Made by a program: the position numbers and the translations under genes. A stretch of DNA of 64,000 bases, taken from Lentilactobacillus laojiaonis. Lineage in GTDB: Bacteria; Bacillota; Bacilli; Lactobacillales; Lactobacillaceae. Where the stretch lies: the NCBI RefSeq assembly GCF_020616595.1, contig NZ_CP085278.1:434001-498000 (forward strand), given 5' to 3'. Positions within the stretch are counted from its first letter, which is position 1; every line of letters starts with the position of its first letter. This document shows positions 35,389-52,072 of the stretch, piece after piece. The notes under the pieces are model-generated. The model was not told the origin of the DNA and made no database searches. It worked only from the letters and a program-made list of their open reading frames with translations.

Positions 35389-35399
35389 TTTAGTGTTAA

Positions 35400-35626
35400 T
35401 TAAGGAGATATGACACATATTTTTTATCAAAGAGAGGGTAAATCTAGTCTGCAAGTTTACCTGTTCAAGGGATATGTGCTACCACTTCTTAAATTTGGAT
35501 TATTTAATTGTAATCACGGATGGGGTTCCGTTACCAACCTTTAGAGTGCCTATAATTTAGGTAAATTGGGTGGAACCACGCTAATTGCGTCCCTAGTATT
35601 TCTTAGAAATACTAGGGATTTTTTTG
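35400..35626 (+). promoter_or_regulatory. T-box riboswitch of thrS (Thr specifier ACC)
   Basis: The stem I base pairs AAGGAG (about 35402) with CTTCTT (35485-35490). The specifier loop shows ACC at 35481-35483 followed by A, a threonine codon. The antiterminator motif GGGTGGAACCACG is at about 35568-35580. The terminator is an 11-bp stem (35591-35601 with 35607-35617) followed by a T run. Uncharged tRNA-Thr should turn on thrS. Confidence 0.92.
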
Positions 35627-35659
35627 TGGTTTCAATTTATTAAAAGGAGAATTGACATT

Positions 35660-37645
35660 ATGAAACAACTTTCATTTGAATTTCCAGATGGTAGTATTAA
35701 AGATTTTGATGATGGTGTAACAGCTGAAGATATTGCTAAATCAATTTCTATTAGTTTAGCTAAAAAATCAGTTGCCGGTAAATTAAATGGTAATTTGGTT
35801 AATTTTAATGAACCACTTCATACCGAAGGTAAAATTGAAATCATTACTAATGATAGTGATGACGGTTTAAAAGTTTTAAGATCAACCGCAGCACAAATTT
35901 TAAAAATGGCTATTAAACAAGATTTTAATGACATTTTATTTGGTGAAGCTATAGCTAATGAAGACGGCTTTTTTGTTGATACCGATAAAGTTGGTACTCA
36001 AATTAGTGCAGATGAATTAGATCAATTAACTAAATCAATGCAAAATATTGTTAAACAAAATCTTGCAATTGAAACAATCGAACTATCTTTAGATGAAGCT
36101 TTATCTTTAGTAGGTAGTGATAATTACCAAGTCGATTTAGTTAATTCAAAAGCAGTTGATCAAAAAGTTAAGTTTTATCAAATTGGTGATTTCAAATCAC
36201 TTGCTGAATCCCCAGTATTAAGTTCAACTGGTAAAGCTAAAGTATTCCAACTATTATCAGTAGCTGGTGCATATTGGCAAGGTAAATCATCTAACCCAAT
36301 GTTACAAAGAATTTACGGAACATCATTTTATAAAGCAGGTCAACTTGAAGAAGATCTAAAACGTCGCCAAGAAGCCAAAGAACGTGATCACCGAGTAATT
36401 GGAAATCAATTAGATTTATTCTTTGTTGATCCAAAAGTAGGGGCTGGTTTACCTTACTGGATGCCAAATGGTGCCACAATTAGACGTACAATCGAAAGAT
36501 ATATCACTGATCGTGAATTAGCTGCTGATTATCAACACGTTTATACTCCAGTATTAGCTAATTTAGATTTATATAAACAATCAGGTCACTGGGCTCATTA
36601 TCGTGAAGACATGTTCCCACCAATGGATATGGGTGATGGAGAACTATTGGAATTACGTCCAATGAATTGTCCTAGTCATATTCAAGTATTTAAACACCGT
36701 GTACGTTCATATCGTGAATTACCACTTCGAATTGCCGAATTAGGTATGATGCACCGTTATGAAAAATCAGGTGCCTTAAGTGGATTACAACGTGTTCGTG
36801 AAATGACTTTAAATGATGGGCATACTTTTGTAACTCCTGATCAAATCCAAGATGAATTCCAAAAAATTCTTAAATTAATGATTTCGGTTTATCATGATTT
36901 TGATATTAATGATTACAAATTCCGTTTAAGTTACCGTGATCCTCAAAATACTGAAAAATATTTTGATGATGATGAAATGTGGAATAAAGCACAAAACATG
37001 CTAAAAGGTGCCATGGATAGCTTAGGTCTTGACTATGTTGAAGCCGAAGGTGAAGCTGCTTTCTACGGTCCAAAATTAGACGTTCAAACTAAGACTGCTT
37101 TAGGTAACGAAGAAACTTTATCAACTATTCAATTAGACTTCATGCTTCCTGAAAGATTTGATTTACACTATATTGGTGAAGATGGTAAAGAACACCGTCC
37201 TGTAATGATTCACCGTGGAATTGTTTCAACTATGGAAAGATTCACTGCTTACTTAACTGAAATTTATAAAGGGGCATTCCCAACCTGGCTTGCACCACAT
37301 CAAGTTACAATTATTCCAGTTAGCCAAGATAAGCATGGAAAATATGCCGAAGAGATTAACGAAAAATTACGTGGCTTAAATATTCGTTCAAGTGTTGAAA
37401 CTCGAAGCGAAAAAATGGGTTACTTAATTAGGGATGCTCAAACTCACAAATTGCCATATACTTTAGTAGTTGGTGATGAAGAAATGAATGAAGGTAGCGT
37501 TTCTGTTAGAAAATATGGAGAAAGTGATGCTAAAGAAGTTTCTTTAGATGACTTCATTAAATATGTTCAAAATGACATTATGACTTATTCACGTAAAAAT
37601 AATTCAGAAAATACTGTTGAATCAAAACTAGAAAAAGATAAATAG
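35660..37645 (+). CDS. thrS: Threonyl-tRNA synthetase with a degenerate editing site
   Basis: 661 residues. An N-terminal TGS domain (1-62), N2 editing domain (63-225), class II catalytic domain (about 245-540) and anticodon domain (to 645) are all present. Zinc ligands of the aminoacylation site are kept: Cys in RPMNCPSH, His in LNDGHTF, His in VMIHRGI. In the editing domain, however, the usual RHSxxH reads RSTAAQ (Ser75, Gln79 for His73, His77 of E. coli) and DLCRGPH reads SLAESPV (Ala182, Val186 for Cys182, His186). All four editing residues are gone, so Ser-tRNA-Thr clearance is probably lost. Start fixed by AAAGGAGA before the ATG at 35660. Confidence 0.96.
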
Positions 37646-51827: not shown

Positions 51828-51845
51828 TCTAATTAATGGTGTAAA

Positions 51846-52072
51846 TTGAAAAAAGTAGTAATCAAATCCCTTTTTTATAGAGACCTTGTGCTTGGTGTAA
51901 ACAAGGAAAAAGGCTTGATGAATTCGTTTTTCTGCCTAAATAAAACAATAATTAAATAAAATAATTTGGTTATCGCCGTTATCGATGTCTAAGTGTATTA
52001 ATTGGATTCCAATTAATAAAACAGGGTGGTACCGCGAAGCTTCGTCCCTTTTATGGGATGGGGCTTTTTTTA
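51846..52072 (+). promoter_or_regulatory. T-box riboswitch of pheST (Phe specifier TTC)
   Basis: Stem I starts with AAAAA (about 51849-51855), pairing with TTTTT near 51927. AGTAGTA (loop E) follows on the 5' side and GAA-TTC-G on the 3' side, so the specifier is TTC at 51923-51925, a phenylalanine codon. The antiterminator motif GGGTGGTACCGCG is at 52024-52036. The terminator hairpin pairs GTCCC with GGGAT around 52044-52058, then a T run. Confidence 0.92.

Follow-up and report, generated by a model that had tools for sequence, protein, structure and literature searches.

The thrS gene of Lentilactobacillus laojiaonis raises a question about proofreading in translation. Has a housekeeping threonyl-tRNA synthetase (ThrRS) kept the fold of its editing domain, called N2, while giving up the residues that hydrolyze Ser-tRNA-Thr? 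The gene lies in the window, the whole stretch of 64,000 nucleotides analyzed here. The genome (G000) is reduced, a single contig of 1.24 Mb with a completeness score of 88.8%; the genomes of 23 congeners span 1.5-3.3 Mb. The features of the locus, all on the forward strand, are these.

35390..35597, +: T-box leader 5' of thrS (RF00230, 62.3 bits, E 3.6e-13, under the gathering score of 93)
35660..37645, +: thrS, threonyl-tRNA synthetase, 661 aa, complete (ORF; TIGR00418 equivalog)
35681..35848, +: N1 (TGS) domain (PF02824, 46 bits)
35849..36346, +: N2 domain, editing fold kept, catalytic centre lost (borders from alignment)
35879..35896, +: motif 1, RSTAAQ, for E. coli RHSCAH (His73 to Ser75, His77 to Gln79; alignment)
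35975..35977, +: Val106 at E. coli Tyr104 (alignment)
36128..36130, +: Gln157 at E. coli Lys156 (alignment)
36197..36217, +: motif 2, SLAESPV, for E. coli DMCRGPH (Asp180 to Ser180, Cys182 to Ala182, His186 to Val186; alignment)
36386..37264, +: aminoacylation domain (PF00587, 138.8 bits; borders from alignment)
36650..36682, +: Glu331, Ser339, and Ile341, flanking zinc ligand Cys337 (alignment)
36668-36670, 36821-36823, and 37211-37213, +: zinc ligands Cys337, His388, and His518, kept (alignment)
37301..37573, +: anticodon-binding domain (PF03129, 74.8 bits)

A second T-box leader, a strong one (109 bits), lies elsewhere in the window at 51842-52052.

An intact synthetase with an altered editing site

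The reading frame at 35624-37645 (forward strand) runs for 673 codons and is open throughout. Within it, the ATG at 35660 was taken as the start of the protein, as it lines up with the start of the S. aureus ThrRS. The protein scores 658.6 bits against TIGR00418 (cut-off 383.65), with residues 75-639 covered, and it has the zinc ligands and the TGS, catalytic, and anticodon-binding domains by which a bacterial ThrRS is recognized. The ligands (Cys334, His385, and His511 in the reference) are present in 181 of 181 distinct ThrRS rows, this being the number left from 207 after removal of identical rows and of L002 and L141, which repeat L003 and L161. Among the best 80 of 147 matches, the nearest named relatives of the protein are from Lentilactobacillus (16 of the 17 loci L061-L077; the remaining locus is from a Lactobacillaceae MAG), and the 17 share 74-79% protein identity with it.

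Residues were placed by phmmer alignments with the E. coli (1qf6) and S. aureus (1nyq) enzymes and by a MAFFT alignment of the 207 ThrRS sequences. Both put Ser75 (codon 35882-35884), Gln79 (35894-35896), Ala182 (36203-36205), and Val186 (36215-36217) at the positions of E. coli His73, His77, Cys182, and His186. A sequence-only reading of this DNA had reported these four residues as lost; the alignments bear this out, and indicate that the loss was slightly understated. Tyr104, Lys156, and Asp180 (E. coli numbering), which we take to be further editing residues, are gone as well, and the enzyme keeps none of the seven.

Of the other N2 columns that are invariant outside Lactobacillaceae, the window's protein keeps 19 of 29, versus zero of the seven editing columns, a bias beyond chance. 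Over the 115 rows scored below as having lost the centre, the contrast is weaker, because much of N2 is relaxed: columns kept at 90% or more number 0 of 7 for editing versus 12 of 29 for the others (Fisher p = 0.07).

A sequencing error, a misalignment, or a pseudogene might, of course, give the same appearance. The probability of this is close to nil. The agreement of the phmmer and MAFFT placements rules out misalignment, and the uninterrupted frame together with the TIGR00418 score rules out a pseudogene. Independent genomes agree: The four residues are missing from the ThrRS of every one of the 23 congeners searched (G001-G023), including G023, where the gene is in two pieces. This also rules out decay specific to one strain.

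The fold of the domain tells a different story from its catalytic residues. Against PF07973 the window's N2 hovers about the 24-bit cut-off, scoring 22.1 bits in the protein scan (below it) and 26.9 bits in the genome search (just above it). An AF2 model of residues 1-241 (N1-N2) has a pLDDT of 95.8, and the best Foldseek match to this predicted structure is 1nyq (TMq 0.89), with 1tje at a TMq of 0.79. The PDB matches run in the order 1nyq, 1nyr, 6vu9, 1qf6, 1tje, all ThrRS, followed by chains of the mammalian mitoribosome, which are presumably mL39 (MRPL39), a non-catalytic relative of the N1-N2 part of ThrRS. The earlier description of a decayed proofreading centre in an otherwise intact enzyme, with zinc ligands and N1-N2 fold kept, stands.

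A retained role in binding tRNA would be a natural reason to keep the fold. The ThrRS editing domain gives a surface for the minor groove of the acceptor stem, and its deletion lowers charging efficiency (excerpt of PMC4267643). The N2 fold would thus most likely be kept to grip the acceptor stem of tRNA-Thr and to charge it efficiently.

Extent and timing of the loss

Loss of the ThrRS editing centre apparently spans the lactobacilli, rather than being confined to one bacterium. Here, the centre was scored as lost if at most one of four residues (His73, His77, Cys182, and His186) is left. Forty genera of Lactobacillaceae, mostly with one genome per genus, divide into 32 where the centre is lost, 7 with His-His-Asp-Leu, and 1 that is intact. 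None of the four residues remains in 28 of the 32 and in the window's own genus; the first histidine alone remains in g41, g47, and g48. Named genera with the loss are Lentilactobacillus, Levilactobacillus, Lactiplantibacillus, Fructilactobacillus, Agrilactobacillus, Dellaglioa, Lapidilactobacillus, Lacticaseibacillus, Companilactobacillus, Bombilactobacillus, and Paucilactobacillus. What had been read as a feature of one organism is instead the state of every congener searched and of four-fifths of the Lactobacillaceae genera read.

Two split genes were met in this survey. The row from G023 (L028) is partial and was counted as lost with gaps. In contig C1 of G057, query residues 4-212 match at the contig start and 214-647 at 2.465 Mb, which fits a circular contig cut inside the gene (2.6 Mb genome, 3 contigs).

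The intact genus, g36, has His-His-Cys-His, and we take it to be Periweissella. A strict DNA pattern for the intact motif 2 finds 1 of 397 Lactobacillaceae genomes (G156, of g36), with one chance match in a reversed control; this pattern undercounts, as it passes over two g36 genomes whose sequences (L160 and L163) are intact. The g36 sequences read are those of its genomes other than G130 and G179.

A pattern for the Asp/Leu motif finds 69 of the 397 genomes (two chance matches in the reversed control). These come from g2, g7, g8, g33, g35, g46, and g56, where the motif is present in 69 of 69 surveyed members, and from no other genus. The 11 rows with C182D and H186L (L041, L044, L045, L168, L169, and L185-L190) all keep His73, His77, Tyr104, and Lys156. 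The seven genera are presumably relatives of Leuconostoc, Weissella, and Oenococcus.

Outside the family, all seven editing residues are kept in 52 of 52 distinct ThrRS rows, 22 from other families of Lactobacillales and 30 from other families of Bacilli. The latter 30 come from 28 genomes where the strict motif pattern had failed. Across the class Bacilli, that pattern is missing in 109 of 299 genomes, three of them Lactobacillaceae. Thirty of the 109 were searched for ThrRS, and 28 gave matches (E <= 1e-60); all 30 loci kept from them have His-His-Cys-His, a survey that leaves 79 of the 109 genomes unread, together with second copies in G576, G696, and G703, so that further losses in Bacilli may exist. 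As these residues indicate, pattern failure in the genomes read is a fault of the pattern, not a loss of residues. The two genomes without a match at E <= 1e-60, G442 and G495 (both 99% complete), perhaps have a divergent ThrRS or an assembly gap.

Two trees bear on the timing. The first uses the catalytic and anticodon-binding domains, with the editing domain excluded, and was made by a quick method with SH-aLRT support and no bootstrap. Here, Lactobacillaceae form one clade (98). Its 58 rows of lactobacilli group together (94), and g36 and the Asp/Leu genera fall in a sister group of 14 rows (96). The second tree, built from N2 minus the seven editing columns, has the same split, with a long lactobacilli stem (0.54); g36 is sister to the Asp/Leu rows (91), which alone have a support of 84.

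These trees suggest a history in which an intact family ancestor was followed by a single loss on the lactobacilli stem. They also suggest that the sister group separately exchanged Cys182 for Asp and His186 for Leu, after g36 had split off as the one genus retaining the original site. The comparison with related genera by which the sequence-only reading had proposed to date the loss would place it on that stem. Horizontal gain of an intact N2 by g36 is not favoured, as its N2 groups with those of the Asp/Leu rows.

The ratio of N2 to catalytic divergence was computed after dropping pairs more than 97% identical in the catalytic domain. It reaches 3.6 in a sample of 45 of the 115 rows of lactobacilli. 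In the order outgroups (22 rows) and the Asp/Leu genera (11 rows) it is 1.71 and 1.69, and across the whole set of 52 rows from outside the family, where sequences lie much further apart, it is 1.1. Relative to the catalytic domain, N2 is evolving about twice as fast in lactobacilli as in the order outgroups.

In three genera of lactobacilli, dN of N2 over dS of the gene has a median of 0.08-0.13, where the catalytic domain has 0.01-0.03. The Asp/Leu pairs have 0.09 and the order outgroup pairs 0.12 (catalytic domain 0.04 and 0.06), all of these being rough values, given partial saturation at synonymous sites. Taken by itself, the N2 dN/dS of lactobacilli does not exceed that of the outgroups; only its ratio to a very conserved catalytic domain is raised. 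The N2 domain of lactobacilli is relaxed, yet still under purifying selection.

Consequences for proofreading

With good confidence, we regard the window's gene as encoding a housekeeping ThrRS with a dead site for post-transfer editing. In E. coli ThrRS, H73, H77, C182, and H186 are all critical, and C182A and C182S each abolish editing (excerpt of PMC4041444). In the ancestor of the lactobacilli, where the residues were lost, N2 would have ceased to hydrolyze Ser-tRNA-Thr. Aminoacylation, with its zinc-based selection of threonine, would go on, given the kept ligands. Ser-tRNA-Thr might then be tolerated, placing some serine at threonine codons; alternatively, it might be held low by the synthetic site or by the ratio of threonine to serine in the pool.

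By analogy, tolerance in lactobacilli is plausible. In E. coli, Thr-to-Ser errors made by ThrRS are well tolerated, and C182A causes little growth defect (excerpt of PMC10057733). A protease-deficient E. coli strain does suffer with excess serine under oxidant stress (excerpt of PMC4041444), and, according to a review, ThrRS is one of the bacterial synthetases in which defective editing impairs growth (excerpt of PMC11415595).

Perhaps the N2 domain still edits weakly through the residues that replaced the originals. Its continued constraint, with a dN/dS of about 0.1, would be expected if so. However, many unlike residues are found across the lactobacilli at each of positions 75, 79, 182, and 186, and against PF07973 the ThrRS of the order outgroups score 54-72 bits, whereas those of lactobacilli score 33 bits or less or give no match. 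This makes residual editing very improbable.

Some other protein might do the work instead. The sequence-only reading had named a second thrS or a stand-alone editing domain as what would restore proofreading. In G000 (completeness score 88.8%), no second thrS was found. Among the three listed of four ThrRS matches in total, one is strong, the gene itself, and two are weak (39 and 22 bits). Two frames alone match PF07973: ThrRS and one of 881 aa that is taken as AlaRS from its length and motifs and keeps the HTATH and CGGTH editing motifs. No free-standing tRNA_SAD domain like AlaX or ThrRS-ed, and no dedicated trans-editor of a known type, was found in this genome at that completeness.

Across 37 genomes of Lactobacillaceae, PF07973 occurs only in frames of AlaRS or ThrRS length, with three exceptions: two in G023, namely its ThrRS piece and a frame of 494 aa, and a 417-aa frame in G030. 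This last (L184, G030:C11:23500-27000) has HTATH and no CxxxH, and it adjoins a 413-aa frame; the two are perhaps a frameshifted AlaRS. G046, a genome from outside the family, has an AlaX-like 387-aa frame with HTGQH and CGGTH as its third tRNA_SAD match (L183, G046:C1:2398000-2399500). Expansion of the DTD family was looked for and rejected; the window's genome has one such protein, and 59 of 60 genomes have one match each, with zero in G024.

A takeover of the N2 job by a broadened YbaK, a ProXp-ST-like protein, or another deacylase is, on this evidence, unlikely. The genome does encode one free-standing INS protein, a YbaK equivalog, and many congeners have more free-standing INS matches, PF04073 being found 2-5 times per genome with ProRS counted. 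Further, ProXp-ST1 and ProXp-ST2 hydrolyze Ser- and Thr-tRNAs, tRNA-Thr among them (excerpt of PMC11295145). The same source describes YbaK chemistry as thiol-specific, however, and G039, with its intact ThrRS, also has a YbaK-type protein (L224), which at 135 bits falls short of the equivalog cut-off of 153.25. Therefore, the presence of YbaK does not track the loss in ThrRS. The near confinement of PF07973 to AlaRS- and ThrRS-length frames likewise speaks against a takeover.

An alternative is that stronger rejection of serine at the synthetic site, or editing there before transfer, has made post-transfer editing dispensable and left translation accurate. Here, the loop at Cys337 would have been remodelled first, in the ancestor of Lactobacillaceae, and would have permitted the later loss. 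We consider this possible, but less likely than not. Glu331, Ser339, and Ile341 are found in 129 of 129 distinct Lactobacillaceae rows (115 lost, 11 Asp/Leu, and 3 intact g36), and outside the family in 0, 0, and 4 of 52, respectively. Common to all three states, this set would predate the loss. Other changes are typical of the lost rows, namely Asp257 and Thr477 (115 of 115 each) and Met268 (112 of 115). Precedents exist in a ProRS without an editing domain and in mitochondrial PheRS, which gained specificity upon losing editing (excerpt of PMC11415595). Conversely, the three residues, placed near the zinc ligand by sequence, may be neutral, and in Anabaena T2 discrimination by the active site was excluded as the compensating mechanism (excerpt of PMC4787780).

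A still broader hypothesis, offered tentatively and to be doubted accordingly, concerns the cysteine. All Lactobacillaceae bar one genus may have abandoned an oxidation-prone cysteine editing site, and done so in two ways. The lactobacilli would go without ThrRS proofreading, protected by the earlier change around the zinc ligand. The Leuconostoc-like group would have rebuilt a cysteine-free His-His-Asp deacylase, resembling a 2-His-1-carboxylate site and still editing. A working, redox-proof Asp/Leu site fits the motif's presence in every one of the 69 genomes, the four residues kept in all 11 rows, and an N2 ratio like that of the intact outgroups. Changing Cys to Asp requires two nucleotide changes. 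As for the oxidant, H2O2 is an attractive driver of the loss, since Cys182 of E. coli ThrRS is oxidation-sensitive (excerpt of PMC4041444). It is not a sufficient cause, because the ThrRS of order relatives in family f4, which we take to be H2O2-producing streptococci, keeps the cysteine.

Relation to known editing-deficient synthetases

To our knowledge, free-living bacteria are thought to keep ThrRS proofreading. If the dead-site reading is true, the lactobacilli, a large group with cultured members from food and the gut, would depart from this rule, as they lack the canonical ThrRS editing centre. The three states within one family (intact, Asp/Leu, and lost) form a natural experiment on when proofreading becomes expendable, and tractable organisms such as Lactiplantibacillus plantarum would allow the loss to be tested.

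Editing-deficient synthetases as such are already known. The window's genome adds a natural case by its residues, with none of seven editing residues in its only strong ThrRS match. What would be new is that ThrRS of cultured bacteria has lost the centre across a family, together with the fixed His-His-Asp-Leu variant. No report of either was found in the open PMC papers searched, a set that does not include the main survey of editing loss (Melnikov 2018). The sequence-only reading had known ThrRS editing loss from mycoplasmas only; that was too narrow, since it is described also for yeast mitochondria, some archaea, and Anabaena T2 (excerpts of PMC4267643, PMC7373986, and PMC4787780).

Mycoplasmas offer a close parallel. 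In their LeuRS, PheRS, and ThrRS, likewise housekeeping enzymes, editing residues are mutated or the domain is lost (excerpts of PMC7373986 and PMC4014445), and editing loss has been attributed to host-restricted bacteria, in contrast to free-living ones (excerpt of PMC10057733). Mycoplasmas are, however, host-restricted and have lost editing in several synthetases, whereas the bacteria here are mostly cultured and fermenting. Unlike in mycoplasmas, in the window's genome ThrRS is affected and the AlaRS-type frame keeps its motifs, the comparison covering these two synthetases.

Among the structural neighbours, mL39 stands next to ThrRS in the Foldseek list and, unlike the window's N1-N2, does not belong to a synthetase. 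Yeast mitochondrial ThrRS has no editing in cis (excerpt of PMC4267643), and some archaeal enzymes rely on ThrRS-ed acting in trans (excerpt of PMC7373986). These ThrRS enzymes without N2 would share with the window's enzyme the absence of post-transfer editing in cis. There, the domain is absent or a partner does its work; here, the whole N2 is kept and its centre emptied.

The duplicated ThrRS T2 of Anabaena is likewise a full-length enzyme with impaired editing (excerpt of PMC4787780). It keeps HxxxH and DxCRGPH, according to that excerpt, and is a second copy aided by T1; the enzyme of the window is the sole ThrRS found in its genome, and its motifs are gone.
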